Positions 2,898 through 50,632 of a stretch of 51,215 nt of DNA are shown one piece after another. The stretch's first letter is position 1, and the number at the start of each line of letters is the position of its first letter. The position numbers and the translations under genes are program-made. Below the pieces are notes generated by a model. It was not told the origin of the DNA. It was given only the letters and a program-made list of their open reading frames with translations, and ran no database searches. The stretch comes from a virus. Location of the stretch: the IMG/VR virus record IMGVR_UViG_3300035128_000044, positions 1-51,215 of that record; one strand, written 5' to 3'.

Positions 2898-4909
2898 GTT
2901 ACACATATAAGTTGCCCAAGAATAAGGACGAAGCTTCTGAGGCTGTTGCTCATATTATATCCGAGGGACGTAGCAGGAGAAATCCAGAAAGTGTTAAATG
3001 GTTTATAGCACAGTATTATATGTCTGGGTTGCGTGAATTTACAAAAGTTGACTATACATCGGGAACAGTTACAATATCCTATCTTAATGAGCCCGGACTT
3101 CTTAAATTAAGATATGAGGACATAGTAGCCAAATATACAACCCAGCTTGGACGTTTACTTGCTATTGACATTTCTCCTAAAGTTTCCAAAAAAGGAGTTA
3201 GTTTAGACGGTGTTAGAAAATCCAGTATAGGGCAAGTAGTTCTTGATGAAGCTATTCCACAGGATAAAGTTGATAAACTTAAACTCGATATGGCTCCTCC
3301 TATTTTAATGTACGGAACTATAGGACTTGGGTTATGGGTTGAAGGTCCAGATAGTCACGGAATTGAAGTTATAATGCCTTGGGAACTTCTTCCTATTCCA
3401 GTTGATATAGCCGGACCAACCGATGTACGTGGGCTTATAAGAATGAGGTACGTTCCTTTGGAATGGTTAAAAGGTTTAGCTATTACTCCAAATGGTTCAA
3501 AATCCTATGTAGGTCTTAATGATATAGAGATTCCAAGCGGTGAAATGCCTATGGATATGGATTCATGGGGAGAGGGCATGATTACCCAGTCTGCTAACGG
3601 CGGTGGATTTTTCGTTAAAAATACTACCAAGGACGATGGTATGGCGAGTGGGTCTAAGAAAACTAAGAATCTTAAAAATGTTCCTGTAACTTTACTTGTA
3701 GAGGTTTGGACCGAAACGAGTGATGGTTATTTAGCAGAATACGCAATTTACGCTGGTATGACTAAATTCAAAGAACTCTATCGTTATGACCATACAAGTG
3801 CTAAATATCCTATGCCAACAAGAATAGTTCGAGGGACTACAGTTGGTAGTTTCTGGGGACGTTCTTTCGTTGACCAAATGATCCCCCTAAATAATGAACT
3901 TGAAATAGCTTTATCAAGTGTTTTCCAATCAGTAGCAGACTTCGATTTATATGGTTTACAAATGTGGCCTACTACTCTGGGAACTCCTCCACAGGCTCAT
4001 AGGGGGCAAGATGGTATCAAAAGAATAACTTTTGAACCCGATTATACCTGTCCAGATTTGAAACCATTTAATATTCAACCGGCCAAAATGACCGCTCCTC
4101 AATTGAAAGCATTAGAAATTGCTTCTGCTTTGATGGATAAGATTGCAAATCAACCCGCTGGATTAACAAGAGGGGAGGCTCCCGGACGTGTTGATAGTGG
4201 CCCCGCTATGGGTATGTTGATGGAAGCCTCAAGTATTCCCTTGTCTCCTGTTGCTAAAAATATAGCTATGGCTATGTCCGGTGAATATCGAGCTTTGTTA
4301 AGAATTTTGAAAGATAACTGGACTGACCAAAAAGTTGTAAGTATAACCAACCTCGATGACTCTCTCGCCGGTATCGTTTTGGATACAGATTCGGGAACTA
4401 TGCAACTATCACAAAATGCAATACCTTATCCCGATGAAGTTCTGGTAACAATCATGTCCGAAAGACCTGTCTCGATGGAACAACAAAAGGCAGAACTAAA
4501 GGAGGCATTTAAGGAAGGTAGAATAACACTTGATGAATTTAATTTCGAAGTTCGTAAAAGAGGTTTGGATATTCCTGTTGGGGATGAAATTGGTTGGCAG
4601 AACTACCGACGAGCTATGCTGGAAAATATAATTCTATTTGGAGATGGTAAAACGCCGGGAGAAGGTGTTATAGTTGGACCAGCCGATTTGCACCGAATAC
4701 ACTTAATGGTACTCCAAGCTTTCGTTGCAAGGCCAGAATTCTTTGTAGCCTCGCAGGAAGTACGTGATAAGTTCTATAAACATATAGATGAACACAAAGC
4801 TCAGATGGGTGATTTTCCCGATCAGCTTCCATATCCTGAGGAAACCGCGGAAGCTTCTCTTGGAATGATGGGCGGTGAAGGTGGAATGCCTCAATTGCCA
4901 ATGCAATAA
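2894..4909 (+). CDS. Portal protein
   Basis: 671 residues from the ATG at 2894, which overlaps the HNH stop (ATGA). A TTG 15 bases upstream is also in frame but less likely. The place between terminase and scaffold/capsid genes, the large size and the acidic/aromatic central region (PPILMYGTIGLGLWVEG near 130, GSFWGRSFVDQMIPLNNELE near 320) fit a podovirus-type portal, the dodecameric DNA gate. The C terminus is Met/Gly/Gln-rich. The call rests mainly on order and size. Confidence 0.78.
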   Translation: MSYTYKLPKNKDEASEAVAHIISEGRSRRNPESVKWFIAQYYMSGLREFTKVDYTSGTVTISYLNEPGLLKLRYEDIVAKYTTQLGRLLAIDISPKVSKKGVSLDGVRKSSIGQVVLDEAIPQDKVDKLKLDMAPPILMYGTIGLGLWVEGPDSHGIEVIMPWELLPIPVDIAGPTDVRGLIRMRYVPLEWLKGLAITPNGSKSYVGLNDIEIPSGEMPMDMDSWGEGMITQSANGGGFFVKNTTKDDGMASGSKKTKNLKNVPVTLLVEVWTETSDGYLAEYAIYAGMTKFKELYRYDHTSAKYPMPTRIVRGTTVGSFWGRSFVDQMIPLNNELEIALSSVFQSVADFDLYGLQMWPTTLGTPPQAHRGQDGIKRITFEPDYTCPDLKPFNIQPAKMTAPQLKALEIASALMDKIANQPAGLTRGEAPGRVDSGPAMGMLMEASSIPLSPVAKNIAMAMSGEYRALLRILKDNWTDQKVVSITNLDDSLAGIVLDTDSGTMQLSQNAIPYPDEVLVTIMSERPVSMEQQKAELKEAFKEGRITLDEFNFEVRKRGLDIPVGDEIGWQNYRRAMLENIILFGDGKTPGEGVIVGPADLHRIHLMVLQAFVARPEFFVASQEVRDKFYKHIDEHKAQMGDFPDQLPYPEETAEASLGMMGGEGGMPQLPMQ

Positions 4910-42680: not shown

Positions 42681-42746
42681 TTATAGGACTTGTGGTTATC
42701 GGACTGAGACATTCGTTTCTGGTTATCGGACATTATATTATTGGAC
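42681..42746 (+). repeat. Four direct copies of TTATNGGAC in a 66-bp cluster
   Basis: Exact copies at 42681, 42696, 42723 and 42738, all on the plus strand, with start-to-start spacing 15, 27 and 15. The same word recurs seven times between 46487 and 46884 and once at 43975 in the hairpin there. The cluster lies in the gene-free stretch ahead of the promoter at 42830, so it is a probable binding array for a phage regulator or replication protein. Confidence 0.75.
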
Positions 42747-42829: not shown

Positions 42830-42857
42830 TTGCATTTTCATTTTTACAAGTTATAAT
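42830..42857 (+). promoter_or_regulatory. Promoter of the accessory block
   Basis: TTGCAT at 42830-42835 and TATAAT at 42852-42857, 16-base spacer. The TTTTTCTCTTG stretch before it also occurs at the two promoters near 26640 and 26900. Downstream, GGAGG precedes the ATG at 42930. Confidence 0.65.
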
Positions 42858-42929
42858 ATGAGTATATTCAATATTGTTTTACAGGTATACAGGTGAAACT
42901 TGTAAATGTTTTTTTAGGAGGTTTATAAA

Positions 42930-46188: not shown

Positions 46189-46353
46189 TTAATTGCCGCC
46201 GTTTAAATAATGAACTCTTTCAGCTGCTTCTTTTTTGGAGTTGTAGTCGGATTCTGAAACCCAAATTCCTTTGGGTGTATAAAATCCTACCGTCCAAACA
46301 TCTTTGCTTGGATTTTCATCGGTTTGAAAATATGTTTGCAAATATACGTACAT
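46189..46353 (-). CDS. Small hypothetical protein
   Basis: 54 residues, ATG at 46353-46351, with AAGGGAA upstream on the minus strand. Beta-strand and aromatic content in the first half (YVYLQTYFQTDENPSKDVWT), then a helical section ending in NGGN. It resembles small proteins that accompany phage DNA genes, but no family is identified. Confidence 0.6.
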   Translation of the reverse strand: MYVYLQTYFQTDENPSKDVWTVGFYTPKGIWVSESDYNSKKEAAERVHYLNGGN

Positions 46354-46406
46354 GTTTTTTTCCCTTCATAAAATAATTATAAGTTGTGTTTAGAGATTCT
46401 TTATAA

Positions 46407-46435
46407 AGTATAACCTATTAATAAGGAAAAAGCAA
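46407..46435 (-). promoter_or_regulatory. Minus-strand promoter for the 54-residue gene
   Basis: Minus strand: TTGCTT (46435-46430), 17 bases, TATACT (46412-46407). It sits at the left end of the repeat region and points away from it. Confidence 0.55.
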
Positions 46436-46486
46436 AATAAATTTGTCAAAGATAGAGAATATTTTTTTTGTGGCGGTAGCGTGTGC

Positions 46487-46884
46487 GTCCAATAACACGA
46501 TTGTGGGTCTGATAATAAATCATTCTACAAGGTAGAAAAAACGGGAGTGTGTTCGGTGCTCATAATTTTTACAATAAGAACCGATAATCTCGCGGAATTA
46601 CCGCAGGAATGTCACGTCCCATAACCTGAATGAAACATAACAATTATTCTCGGACGTGCCCCCATTGATTACAGGCTGCATTCCGCATCATTATCGGACG
46701 TGTTAATCTGTTCTATGCTTTATTCATAATGAAACCAACACATTATAGGACTTTATAGTCCGATAACCATTCGACATTCCAATAACAACTCGATTTCCTA
46801 CGTGGGATTCAAGTCGATTTCGTGCGGAGTCCAATAATATCCTGGATTCTCGACCCCGTCTGACCCCCTGAAGTCGTCCGATAA
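46487..46884. repeat. Seven copies of TTATNGGAC in both orientations
   Basis: Exact matches: plus strand 46691 and 46743; minus strand (as GTCCNATAA) 46487, 46616, 46758, 46829 and 46876. Imperfect copies occur at 46507 and 46777. The copies at 46743 and 46758 face each other. Several are extended by GTG or AC at the right end. The same word forms the direct array at 42681-42746. Confidence 0.72.
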
Positions 46885-47015
46885 TGGTAGGCAAAGACCC
46901 TTCATATTTAGGACAACCCTTAAAATTCTCCATTCTACTTAGTAGAATATCCCCGATTCTACTTCGTATTCGTTCTAACGTTTAGAATTTTTCCTTCATA
47001 TTCTAAATTGTAGAA
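46523..47015. repeat. Five copies of a 15-bp palindrome TTCTAM-N3-KTAGAA
   Basis: Positions 46523-46537 (spacer AAG), 46933-46947 (TTA), 46957-46971 (degenerate right arm), 46973-46987 (CGT) and 47001-47015 (ATT). Arms differ only at the inner base. The dyad geometry (6-3-6) is typical of a small dimeric repressor or initiator site. Four lie within 83 bases. Confidence 0.75.
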
Positions 47016-47067
47016 AAAGTGCACCCCCGTTATTCGCTCAAAAATGAGAGGTGTACCCAGATGTGTC

Positions 47068-47308
47068 CTATGTAAAAATGTCACATAGGGTAAACTAATT
47101 TCTTATATAACAAGAGTTTACATTCGTGTACCCTATGTGCCTATGTATTTTCCTATTTGCTTTTTCACAACAAGAAAATTATATATAGGAAAGAAAAAAG
47201 AGAAAATAGCTGGGCACATAGGACACCAAATTTTTTAATCTCTGTAACATCTTTATTTATAATAACTTACAAGCGTTTTTCTGTACCCTATGTAATTTTT
47301 TACATAGG
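47068..47308. repeat. Seven copies of CCTATGT, partly as hairpins
   Basis: Plus strand at 47068, 47132, 47140 and 47287; minus strand at 47084, 47216 and 47302. The pairs 47068/47084 and 47287/47302 face each other, the latter with 9-bp arms CCTATGTAA/TTACATAGG around TTTT. Several copies are preceded by TAC. The operator-like palindrome at 49623 carries the related TACCCTATA. The array ends just before the helicase-unit terminator. Confidence 0.72.
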
Positions 47309-47325
47309 ACACGCATAGGATACAC

Positions 47326-47355
47326 AAAAAAAAAGCCGCCTCGCGGGAGACGGCT
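47326..47355 (-). terminator. Minus-strand terminator of the helicase unit
   Basis: Minus strand: AGCCGTC (47355-47349) pairs with GGCGGCT (47340-47334) with one G-U, followed by a run of nine T (47334-47326). Near-copy of the terminator at 45850. Confidence 0.82.
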
Positions 47356-47387
47356 ATATGGAGGGTATGAAGAGTGAAATGACTTAA

Positions 47388-47648
47388 TTAAATCTTTTCT
47401 TGAACGCCTTCAAATACATATACTCTTTTACCTATTTTACCTTTTCTGACTTTACTCATTTTCGGGAAAACACTACGAACTGCTTTACCAAAAACTCTAA
47501 TATTACAAGGACCATATCCTCGTGATATTATCCATTTTCTATAAACTTCATACAAAATTTTAACTTCTATCCAAACAGAATCGTCAGGTATAAATTCATA
47601 ATTTTCTCTTAAAAATATCTTACTCATTTTTATGCCAAAATTATTCAT
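47388..47648 (-). CDS. Stand-alone winged-helix protein, paralogue of the helicase C terminus
   Basis: 86 residues; ATG at 47648, one base after the helicase stop, with AAGGAG inside the helicase gene as ribosome site. It aligns over almost its whole length with residues ~370-442 of the helicase: FLRENYEFIP/YLRENYYYDS, YEVYRKWIISRGYGP/YKIYRIWCREKGYQP, FGKAVRSVFP/FGKEVLRAFP, VYVFEGV/HYVYEGL. This is the D5-type C-terminal winged helix that binds DNA in phage primase-helicases. It probably arose by partial duplication and could bind the same sites as a regulator or loader. Confidence 0.75.
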   Translation of the reverse strand: MNNFGIKMSKIFLRENYEFIPDDSVWIEVKILYEVYRKWIISRGYGPCNIRVFGKAVRSVFPKMSKVRKGKIGKRVYVFEGVQEKI

Positions 47649-47649
47649 A

Positions 47650-49032
47650 TTATTTCTCCTTCAATTTAGGTTTTGTTAAATACCCCTGGACTTCCGCTCC
47701 GACCTGGAACTTCAATCCCTCATATACATAATGCCTATACTCTCTTCCTCCGATCCTTCGTTTAGCAGTTTGTGGAAAGGCTCTAAGCACCTCCTTGCCA
47801 AATGTCCTATCGCTCATCGGCTGGTAGCCCTTTTCCCTGCACCAGATTCGATAAATCTTGTAAACAGTCTCGGTTCTAACACCCAATGGATATGTCGAAT
47901 CATAATAATAATTCTCTCTCAAATACATACCAGCCGGATTCGATTCCTCCTTAAACCTTCTCCAAACAGCCTCACTCGCTTCCGGCTTACAGAATCCTCC
48001 ATTAGCTTTTAGCTTCATCATACCCATAATAGCCCAATTCAGAATACCAGGCATCTCAGCTTCCAACTTCGCATCCAAATCTGGGTCAACCTCCGCAGTG
48101 TTTCGAACGAACGGCACAACTTTTAACCTTCTCCAGGTTCCCATACTCTTATCCGTGAAATTTGGAAAATCATTACAAAGAACCATAAGCTTCGCAGTTG
48201 CCTCGGCTGTAAATGCGTCTCCCCATTTTCTTTCAAAATCCAAACCATCGGCTCCGGTCCAGGTTTTAATAACAGCTTCGATCTGTGGTGTGAGTTCCTG
48301 CTCCGCGTCTCCGGCCACATTCAGCTTTTTCCCAAAGGTCATATAAAGTGAGAAATTATTACCAAACCTGCGGAGGGGTAAATCACTACAATTATTTCGA
48401 CCGAGCATATTTTTCATCGCTCTGGCAAACGTGCTCTTTCCGGCTGCCGCTTCCCCAATACATAAAAGGAAGCATTGGTATTCTTGGGTAGGCATTAATA
48501 GGTATCCAGCCCACATTTGAAGAAGTTCCTGTAATTCTTTATCCCCACTGGTAATTTCCTCCATAAATTGCAACCAACGAGTACATTTTGCATTTTCATC
48601 GAAATCATAGGGAAGCTTATTAATCGTGAAGAAATCTGGGGTCTTGGCCGATTTGGTAATCGTCCCATCCGGCATAAACGTTAAAATCCAATTATTTAAT
48701 ACAATTGCTTCAACCGTTTTATTCGGTTCTTTATCGGTAAGCCAAGTATTCAAAAGTCTACCGTACGGAATGTTGGCCTGGGCTTTAAGATTTAATCGAA
48801 TATTCTCAATTAGTTTTGTGCTTGCTTCGACATGGTTTTTCGCCGCGAACTTCACAAGAAAAGCTGTGAGATCATTTTTATTTACTTTTTGATAAACACT
48901 TCCATTCCATAGGTAGAAGTCGTCCCGCCAAAAAATTAGAACTTGTTTTTTCTCCCCATTGAATTGTTTATGGCCTATAGCCTGAAAGAACCCATATGCA
49001 ATTCCGGCTGGAGTTGGTTTATCCTTGTCCAT
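47650..49032 (-). CDS. SF3-type (D5-like) replicative helicase, no primase domain
   Basis: 460 residues, ATG at 49032. Walker A GEAAAGKST (193-201), Walker B-like KKLNVAGDAE (235-244), motif C with an asparagine sensor LMVLCNDFP (282-290), and an arginine pair at 301-302 (GTWRRLKVVPF) are those of superfamily 3 helicases. A D5-type N-terminal region precedes and a C-terminal winged helix (370-442) follows. The usual N-terminal primase part is missing, so priming must come from elsewhere. It would unwind at the neighbouring origin. Two TGCGGAGG words lie in the gene. Confidence 0.85.
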   Translation of the reverse strand: MDKDKPTPAGIAYGFFQAIGHKQFNGEKKQVLIFWRDDFYLWNGSVYQKVNKNDLTAFLVKFAAKNHVEASTKLIENIRLNLKAQANIPYGRLLNTWLTDKEPNKTVEAIVLNNWILTFMPDGTITKSAKTPDFFTINKLPYDFDENAKCTRWLQFMEEITSGDKELQELLQMWAGYLLMPTQEYQCFLLCIGEAAAGKSTFARAMKNMLGRNNCSDLPLRRFGNNFSLYMTFGKKLNVAGDAEQELTPQIEAVIKTWTGADGLDFERKWGDAFTAEATAKLMVLCNDFPNFTDKSMGTWRRLKVVPFVRNTAEVDPDLDAKLEAEMPGILNWAIMGMMKLKANGGFCKPEASEAVWRRFKEESNPAGMYLRENYYYDSTYPLGVRTETVYKIYRIWCREKGYQPMSDRTFGKEVLRAFPQTAKRRIGGREYRHYVYEGLKFQVGAEVQGYLTKPKLKEK

Positions 49033-49033
49033 A

Positions 49034-49546
49034 TTATTTCTTTCTATATAAATGTTCCTTCAAGGACCATATTCTCATTGCTGCTAACTCCCCTAATTTC
49101 ACTCTCTGTTTGTCGGTTATTTTGGGAGCTTTATTGTTAAATTTTGGATATTTTACTCGTTTTACCAAGCAATTTCCCCAGTCACTTTGGTATATTGAAA
49201 GAAGTCCAGCACGTTCCGGGATAAGTTCTAAAGCATCTTTTTCCAAATAATCGGGCACAGCAAACCATAATCCTTTTATTCGAGGACTATCATGATGATG
49301 CTCTTTCTTCCAATCCGCTTTCAAATCCTGTTTAGATACCTTAATTTCGACCTCATATATACAACCGGCTTTCGTAACTATAAGCATATCTAATTCATAT
49401 TGGAATCCGAGACCATATGAGACATTGGGAACTATTATATTTTGACGATAATTGAATTCTTGGGCTACTGCTATCTCTATATCTCCAGCATGTAGCTTTC
49501 TTTTTGTTATTTTACATTCTCCGAAGGTTCTCTGGTTGTTCTTCAT
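49034..49546 (-). CDS. MmcB-like PD-(D/E)XK nuclease
   Basis: 170 residues from the ATG at 49546. Longer in-frame starts lie upstream of the promoter and are not credible. The core reads YELDMLIV (Asp53) and YEVEIKVSKQDL (Glu67-x-Lys69), the D-ExK signature of MmcB/PD-(D/E)XK proteins involved in DNA repair. An HHHDSPR segment follows near 85. It is the first gene of the minus-strand helicase operon. Cutting of DNA during repair or replication is the likely role. Confidence 0.74.
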   Translation of the reverse strand: MKNNQRTFGECKITKRKLHAGDIEIAVAQEFNYRQNIIVPNVSYGLGFQYELDMLIVTKAGCIYEVEIKVSKQDLKADWKKEHHHDSPRIKGLWFAVPDYLEKDALELIPERAGLLSIYQSDWGNCLVKRVKYPKFNNKAPKITDKQRVKLGELAAMRIWSLKEHLYRKK

Positions 49547-49552
49547 TTCTAT

Positions 49553-49581
49553 ATTATAGCACAGTCTAAAATTAATTTCAA
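49553..49581 (-). promoter_or_regulatory. Minus-strand promoter giving an almost leaderless transcript
   Basis: Minus strand: TTGAAA (49581-49576), 17 bases, TATAAT (49558-49553). The start codon of the nuclease gene begins at 49546, so only 6 bases separate the -10 box and ATG, and transcription should start at or next to the A of ATG. Confidence 0.78.
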
Positions 49582-49622
49582 TACAATTTGCAGGTAAAAA
49601 TAAAAAAGTACCAACATTTTGC

Positions 49623-49639
49623 TTGTATACCCTATACAA
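49623..49639. promoter_or_regulatory. Operator-like palindrome overlapping the plus-strand -35 box
   Basis: TTGTATA-CCC-TATACAA is a perfect 7-bp inverted repeat with a 3-base spacer. It covers the -35 box of the promoter at 49623-49651, so a bound dimer would block it. The core TACCCTATA resembles the CCTATGT repeats of the putative origin. Confidence 0.6.
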
Positions 49640-50005: not shown

Positions 50006-50204
50006 GGGTAGTAGAAGAAGAAAAAGTTTTGTCTCTGCTGAACAATATCGAAGGAACTGGTTACGGATATTCGGAAAAAAATGTACAAGCTGTAATGGCA
50101 CAGGTGTTTTTTCCGCGGGGGGTGAATTGGGGGATAAAATTTGTACTGTTAGTCCTTGCCAAACATGCGATGGAGTTGGGTTTATAGAAAAAGGAAAGAA
50201 ATGA
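49998..50204 (+). CDS. DnaJ-type zinc-finger small protein
   Basis: 68 residues, ATG at 49998 with GGGGG upstream. Basic N terminus (GKGSRRRKSF) followed by two CxxCxG motifs (CTSCNGTG, CQTCDGVG), the repeat unit of the DnaJ cysteine-rich region, here as a free zinc protein. Such proteins occur in phages without a J domain. It overlaps the next start (ATGA). Confidence 0.7.
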   Translation: MGKGSRRRKSFVSAEQYRRNWLRIFGKKCTSCNGTGVFSAGGELGDKICTVSPCQTCDGVGFIEKGKK

Positions 50205-50632
50205 TTGATTTAGTCCCAGATGAACTTGACTTTGGATTCGGAAGTCTTTACGAGATTTCTTACTTGGAAAAAATATTTGGAATATCGAGACGTACTGCTT
50301 TTAAGTTTTTGAAAGCTTTACATATAGAGGCTTTTTACGTGGGAAAGAAAGTTTATTACAGTCACGTGAGTTTCAAACGCATTTTATTTGTTTTAAGTAA
50401 ACCCGGTAGTCCCGGATTCATTTTTCCTGGAAGCACTAAAAAGAATGATAGTCGTATCGATAAAGATAGTAATTACTTGACCGAAGTGACAAATGAAATA
50501 TTGGAAAAGGCGGCAGACCCGGCAATACTTGCCGAGATGGATGCTTCTACAGGAAAGAATCCCAATTTAATGAAACAGTTTATAGCTCGGCCAGTCGGAA
50601 GACCACGAAAAGATGAAAACAAAAGTAGTTAA
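50201..50632 (+). CDS. Helix-turn-helix DNA-binding protein
   Basis: 143 residues from the ATG at 50201 (overlaps the previous stop, AGGAAAG upstream). A helix-turn-helix of the excisionase/MerR-type winged family is visible at about 18-50 (LEKIFGISRRTAFKFLKALHI). The C-terminal end has an AT-hook-like GRPRK motif. It could be a regulator or a second packaging-related DNA-binding protein, since the terminase follows. It overlaps the DUF4326 gene. Confidence 0.62.
   Translation: MIDLVPDELDFGFGSLYEISYLEKIFGISRRTAFKFLKALHIEAFYVGKKVYYSHVSFKRILFVLSKPGSPGFIFPGSTKKNDSRIDKDSNYLTEVTNEILEKAADPAILAEMDASTGKNPNLMKQFIARPVGRPRKDENKSS

Follow-up and report, generated by a model that had tools for sequence, protein, structure and literature searches.

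A candidate SF3-type replication origin beside an independent box array in an uncultured phage genome

The C-terminal domain of SaPI Rep recognizes an iteron origin directly downstream of the rep gene, and Cch2 of SCCmec binds direct repeats 3′ of its own gene, which constitute a putative origin (PMC7581432). The plasmid pRN1 depends on a stem-loop of 100 bp located 3′ of orf904 (stem 21 nt, loop 58 nt), and a similar arrangement was proposed by the same authors for phage BIP-1 (PMC4234260). The alpha protein of P4 is an SF3 helicase with a C-terminal winged-helix origin-binding domain (1ka8). In Streptococcus thermophilus phage Sfi21, a 302-bp non-coding PER element is reported to serve as an origin (PMC6356513).

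The window analyzed here spans an entire IMG/VR virus record (51,215 bases), in which an SF3 helicase gene lies beside an array of CCTATGT words (array C; Table 1). As for SaPI Rep and Cch2, the helicase gene stands directly before a non-coding iteron array; in those systems specificity resides in the helicase C-terminal domain and binding as two hexamers has been proposed, which is counted as a further likeness. Unlike them, the window protein carries an RFX-type winged helix whose DNA binding is a prediction, a stand-alone duplicate of the winged helix and a terminator separate the helicase gene from the array, and a second, unrelated box array adjoins. pRN1 shares with the window an SF3 helicase with a C-terminal winged helix, an origin 3′ of the gene and similarly spaced inverted repeats (21-nt stem and 58-nt loop versus 21-nt arms 49 nt apart), but its protein has a fused archaeo-eukaryotic primase and its repeat is interpreted as a stem-loop rather than as inverted iterons (PMC4234260). 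P4 is comparable by protein and not by iteron sequence, and our winged-helix model matched 1ka8 weakly (E 0.2) relative to RFX domains. In Sfi21, too, a short element without coding capacity lies within the replication module, and no A-type boxes were noted there; its origin is experimental, whereas that of the window is predicted. On the basis of these precedents and the RFX-type winged-helix evidence, array C is best interpreted as this helicase's origin and is probably a replication origin. The overall arrangement that we consider likely is an SF3-type origin at array C beside an independent A element and B operators.

No likely gene was identified in the ∼1,030 bp from 46354 to 47387, which are bordered by an ORF at 46189–46353 (−) and the helicase operon at 47388–49639 (−). 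A 69-aa ORF at 46724–46933 (−), overlaps A boxes, and no relative of it was observed. A previous sequence-only reading had described a gene-free candidate origin with minus-strand units on both sides, next to an SF3 helicase and its winged-helix paralogue, and this description of the surroundings is accurate: two small minus-strand ORFs lie on the left, and the helicase with its 86-aa winged-helix paralogue (−) lies on the right. Family A comprises seven exact copies of TTATNGGAC/GTCCNATAA (46487−, 46616−, 46691+, 46743+, 46758−, 46829− and 46876−) and the near-copies TTCTCGGAC (46647) and TCCAATAA (46778). Family C comprises seven copies of CCTATGT/ACATAGG (47067+, 47083−, 47132+, 47140+, 47216−, 47287+ and 47302−). 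Five TTCTAM-N3-KTAGAA palindromes had also been counted, but only four exact copies of the family B palindrome TTCTAMNNNKTAGAA are present, the fifth (46957) being merely a half-site. The observed counts of 7 (A), 4 (B) and 7 (C) are all far above shuffle expectation: in 2,000 dinucleotide shuffles, A had a mean of 0.051 (maximum 2), B a mean of 0.001 (maximum 1) and C a mean of 0.104 (maximum 2). Family A also occurs outside this 0.9-kb region, at 42681–42746 and 43975 (the latter a single box inside a hairpin), copies that the earlier account did not include. A DNA search of isolated phages with the region gave no matches, and an Rfam search gave a sub-threshold match only.

Table 1. Features of the window, with positions counted from its first base
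Feature	Position	Strand	Remark
Second A-box cluster, four direct copies	42681–42746	+	spacing 15, 27, 15
Main A-box cluster, seven TTATNGGAC and TTCTCGGAC at 46647	46487–46884		
Left boundary block GGTAGAAAAAA..GTGCTCATAATTTT	46523–46570	+	begins with palindrome B1
Palindrome B1 TTCTACAAGGTAGAA	46523–46537		
Degenerate copy of clade block CCCCCC-TCGGCCCC-N18-GGTCAAAGACCTC	46854–46906	+	after the last A boxes
Palindromes B2 (46933), B3 (46973), B4 (47001) and half-site (46957)	46933–47015		
Array C, candidate replication origin	47063–47323		∼10 CCTATG(T)-like words; center of dyad at ∼47177
Outer left arm GTGTCCTATGTAAAAA	47063–47078	+	inverted repeat I5
Inner left tandem iterons TACCCTATGTGCCTATGTATTTTC	47129–47152	+	inverted repeat I4
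AT-rich core with TATATATAGG, candidate unwinding element	47153–47201		between inner inverted iterons
Inner right inverted iterons	47202–47226	−	one good and one degenerate copy; I4
Outer right iterons TGTACCCTATGT / ACATAGGACAC / GCATAGGATAC	47282–47323		
Intrinsic terminator of helicase operon	47334–47355	−	between 86-aa gene and array C edge
86-aa RFX-type winged-helix protein	47388–47648	−	paralogue of helicase C terminus, 36% identical
SF3 (D5/P4-type) helicase, 460 aa	47650–49032	−	C-terminal RFX-type winged helix
MmcB-like nuclease-fold protein	49034–49639	−	first gene of the operon
Strong sigma-70-like promoter of helicase operon, TTGAAA-N17-TATAAT	49553–49581	−	
TGTATACCCTATACA dyad in divergent promoter region	49624–49638		has TACCCTAT in common with array C

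Array C is organized as a large dyad, in which 59 of 129 paired positions are complementary; sampled windows had a mean of 33.6 (S.D. 5.2) and a maximum of 53. Its inner arms, 21 nt long and 86% complementary, lie 49 nt apart and flank a core with an AT content of 76–78% (50-bp windows spanning 47145–47209). The outer arms, GTGTCCTATGTAAAAA and TTTTTACATAGGACAC, are perfect inverted partners of 16 nt, the right one at 47297–47312. The iterons are noncoding and directly 3′ of the helicase operon, with 64 bp between the 86-aa gene and the edge of the array.

The product of the helicase gene matched DUF5906 (2.3e-13) and PHROG primase/helicase families (down to 5.1e-71), and its C terminus matched the Pfam family RFX_DNA_binding (4.5e-11). 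When compared by sequence with solved structures, the 86-aa paralogue matched RFX5 (E 0.00095) and RFX1 (E 0.022), and a model of the winged helix (pLDDT 87) gave fold matches to RFX5 (E 2.4e-5) and RFX1 (E 2.2e-4). From this fold, and from the architecture, position and recurrence of array C, we infer the following course of events: the C-terminal RFX-type winged helix of the helicase would bind the inverted iterons, helicase rings would assemble on either side of the AT-rich core and melt it, and replication would start there. The stand-alone 86-aa winged helix, a protein not seen in L006, L008 or L040, would probably compete for, or regulate, the words of array C. The TGTATACCCTATACA dyad upstream may be an autoregulatory site for the 86-aa protein or the helicase. 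The iteron words (GTNNCC) resemble the half-site of the RFX X-box, a possible lead. In four relatives, a GC-rich hairpin-like leader (GGGGGG..CCCCCC) shortly precedes the helicase start codon (L040:6990–7070, L006:2760–2820, L008:4060–4120 and L071:5900–5990) and could control helicase expression.

Single-sequence IMG/VR searches with the helicase and the MmcB-like gene gave no matches, and relatives were found by an IMG/VR terminase search and an alignment search; the close ones are all metagenome contigs, many of them incomplete. The helicase was present in 3 of 26 terminase-related records searched (46–58% identical), and a helicase alignment search yielded 28 loci with identities down to 23%, some of which are the same records. 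In the closer relatives, the ORF-free stretch 3′ of the helicase carries a locus-specific repeat word (GTGTCCTATG in L040, GTAGCCTATG in L008, GTACCCTAC in L006 and GTCCCATA in L071). In the distant relatives the array layout recurs with different words, as would be expected if every initiator had its own specificity.

To quantify this layout, 26 SF3-helicase loci were scanned under a strict definition, in which a single 7-mer had to occur as a tandem pair and again as an inverted pair, with at most one mismatch. Fourteen instances were located within 500 bp 3′ of the end of the helicase match (14.3 kb searched) and two elsewhere (301.9 kb), the latter at distances of 521 and 654 bp in the 3′ direction from those same helicase genes. 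All 16 instances therefore follow an SF3 helicase match on its 3′ side by less than 660 bp, although the independent cases are fewer because of near-duplicate loci (e.g. L091, L092 and L094; L090 and L093), and the scan, having been devised after inspection of k-mer lists, quantifies the pattern rather than discovering it. The words differed between phages (GTGTCCT, GTCCCAT, TTGTTCC, AGGGGGC, TGCGTCG, TGATGAG, CATGGCG and TTGTGTA). The window itself, despite its clear dyad symmetry, gave no strict match, owing to a degenerate inner copy and a tandem spacing of 8 rather than 9–10.

For 20 of the 38 loci examined with a general inverted-repeat score, the best spaced repeat 3′ of the gene exceeded all 12 control windows; the isolated phages Pan4, CheetoDust, SW18, LP-030-2, CoN_Ph25 and phi-SC181 belong to this set. 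In SW18, a phage of S. thermophilus, inverted arms matching at 18 of 18 positions and spaced 72 bp apart lie right behind the SF3-type primase/helicase gene. No such array was detected 3′ of the helicase in about half of the 38 loci, including most of the isolated phages tested (for example Sasha, B8b and PTXU04). The window also fell below this test, since the 450 bp examined end before most of array C owing to the intervening 86-aa gene. Array C supports a rule that can be tested from sequence: in many SF3-helicase phages, inverted iterons around an AT-rich core would be found just 3′ of the gene, which would give both the origin and the binding word of the helicase. Two other repeat arrangements were seen in relatives. 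About a dozen TTTTCGTCAAA-like repeats occupy the place of array C in L031 (4900–5380), with no SF3 helicase nearby, and reach as far as the promoter that precedes the following plus-strand gene. Dispersed CTCCGCA / CTGCGGA words, ∼20 per locus, occur in L071 and L072 (the record of L008) and also in L023, L031 and L035.

The A boxes are distributed differently. A cluster occurs at the same ORF-free place in at least 12 terminase-related loci, which include loci with an SF3 helicase (L006, L008, L040 and L071) and loci with an AAA_25-type (RepA-like) helicase (L023, L024, L025, L032 and L035), the latter assignment having been run on L035 and the other loci recognized by eye from similar sequences. 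The consensus MGTCCGATAAY was derived from 65 boxes in 13 loci that were collected by an exact 9-mer, which restricts its information to the flanks and the free position; two of the loci (L024 and L025) are near-identical. An alignment of nine phages defined a common core, in which two A boxes at a distance of 16 bp are followed by CCCCCC-TCGGCCCC and after that by GGTCAAAGACCTC. The left boundary block is kept in some relatives, has a DNA match to G026 and lies within ∼450 bp of the skew switch described below. A stringent A-box pair pattern was found in 14 of 2.9 million viral contigs, several of them with other gene content.

The conclusion held with the highest confidence is that A and C are separate elements that differ in their distribution, and it is plausible that they are read by different proteins. 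The sequence-only reading had taken all three repeat families as iterons of one origin and had proposed comparison with related phages; in that comparison C tracks the helicase, A is kept with unrelated helicases and B is mostly absent, so that array C retains its origin-like character while A and B fall outside it. A composite origin that spans the whole 0.9 kb and needs A, B and C would fit the adjacency of A and C in the SF3 phages of the clade and the large bipartite A arrays of L101, L099 and L110. We regard it as improbable, given that A is kept next to helicases of unrelated type and is found again at promoters, that C follows the helicase, that B is mostly missing in relatives and that GC skew at A does not have the direction of an origin.

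Skew was analyzed in an exploratory manner, with window sizes of our choice. At the A cluster, plus-strand GC skew drops from between +0.2 and +0.35 to between −0.1 and −0.35, and this switch is located at the left edge of A in nearly every relative, also where the strand of the neighboring genes is unchanged. The steepest fall occurred within ∼400 bp of an A cluster in the window and in G026, G037, G012, G022, G010, L032, L037, L025, L008, L006 and G033, where the 38.5-kb cluster of G012 and the 22.3-kb cluster of G033 were matched by hand over the “main cluster” of the script and that of G010 is a box pair only. In SF3 phages the minus-strand operon alone would explain the change. However, where plus-strand genes lie to the right, the steepest drop was still close to the cluster (38300 versus 38466 in G012, 37300 versus 37378 in G022 and 2840 versus 2951 in L032), and plus-strand genes within 4 kb to the right had GC3 skews of −0.26, −0.40 and −0.36, respectively. 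Position thus counts beyond gene strand, although an operon that was formerly inverted may also account for this. Other plus-strand blocks of these three phages mostly had GC3 skews of +0.2 to +0.3, with exceptions in G022 (−0.01 at 4–8 kb and −0.16 at 14–24 kb).

A fall from + to − is the direction expected where forks meet, and the skew check suggested with the sequence-only reading therefore places no initiation at A. One explanation treats the A cluster as a terminus of replication or a polar barrier to forks, with an origin 3–8 kb to the right from which short leftward and long rightward forks meet at A. The direction of the switch, its persistence with plus-strand helicase genes to the right (G012, G022 and L032), the negative GC3 skew of those genes and the tendency of A boxes to face each other (+ on the left, − on the right) in L040, L101 and L099 are all consistent with this. 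It is nevertheless judged unlikely: the negative domain is short and may be the relic of a formerly inverted operon of the minus-strand kind that SF3 phages have, the A boxes of L031 are all in one orientation with the steepest drop >1 kb away, only weak shifts were observed in G029, G036 and G027, and the second A cluster, before promoters, has no comparable skew switch. Array C is not located at an origin-type minimum either: around it the skew again changes from + to −, which is a maximum, and the minimum is displaced to the right by ∼2.3 kb, to about 49.6 kb. This counts against the origin reading of array C without deciding it.

The second A cluster of the window lies 83 bp to the left of a promoter-like TTGCAT-N17-TATAAT (42830–42858, by eye) of an operon of tiny genes. 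Second A clusters upstream of TTGC-N17-TATAMT promoter-like sites were observed in four phages (the window, G012, G022 and G026), these sites having been identified by eye with a −35 that matches TTGACA at just three positions, under the threshold of the promoter scan. Such placement, ∼80 bp ahead of a promoter-like sequence, and the occurrence of TACCCTAT both in array C and in the divergent-promoter dyad at 49624 could indicate that A, B and C are all transcription operators for early/late switching with no role in replication. Against this, the promoter scan identified no promoter-like site within array C, which is located after a terminator and fits the 3′ origin architecture of many SF3 phages, and we consider a purely transcriptional role quite unlikely. 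The B palindromes, in turn, are probably ordinary dimer operators. Conservation in relatives is lacking: beside the A cluster, G037 has two exact copies (and one more elsewhere) and G012 has one, and the other records scanned had none.

For A, any specific role is assigned with low confidence. The array would be an independent, clade-wide control element read by a protein other than the helicase, and would most likely couple transcription with replication or fork arrival, acting both here and before an early-type promoter. A more specific proposal, which we offer only tentatively, is that TTATNGGAC arrays are an undescribed replication-control locus, of fork-meeting or initiator type, common to several otherwise unrelated phage lineages, read by one conserved or host-encoded protein and marking the main strand-asymmetry switch. 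DnaA box arrays and the Tus-Ter and RTP fork traps resemble A in having multiple asymmetric short words in both orientations near a strand-skew switch, but DnaA boxes differ from A boxes in sequence, and copy number and spacing differ as well. For a fork trap, the direction of skew is the one feature that fits; no Tus or RTP homologue was identified, and a literature search for TTATCGGAC gave no title on phage replication among the matches listed.

It could also be argued that A boxes are DnaA boxes of the host, given that TTATN is shared with TTATNCACA, the boxes are 9-mers with a free fifth position in bipartite facing arrays, and their presence in unrelated phages fits a host-encoded reader. 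This appears very improbable: the A clusters contain no canonical TTATNCACA-like boxes (TTWTNCACA), a triple A-box pattern was absent from 771 genomes of two phyla, and the 11 matches to the pair pattern in genomes, with two to four boxes each and several in ORFs or GC-rich DNA, were judged to be chance. A host search in genome contigs with the terminase alignment gave no matches. Comparison of the proteins of the two A-box phage groups revealed genes in common, none of which was recognized as a DNA-binding regulator. A helix-turn-helix (HTH) protein (50156–50632) was considered as the reader and rejected, as it follows the terminase clade and is missing from other A-box phages. Phages with different replication modules keep one additional control element, both in an equivalent location beside a positional skew switch and before promoters, and the identity of its reader would show how such uncultured phages link early transcription and replication.

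The HTH protein itself is conserved beside the terminase clade-wide with no PHROGs match, and is possibly the small terminase subunit. Arrays of up to ∼20 A boxes were seen in L101 (97,868 bases; 3850–4330), L099 (5040–5480) and L110 (830–1660); those of L110 lie partly within an ORF, where they read as SDN.
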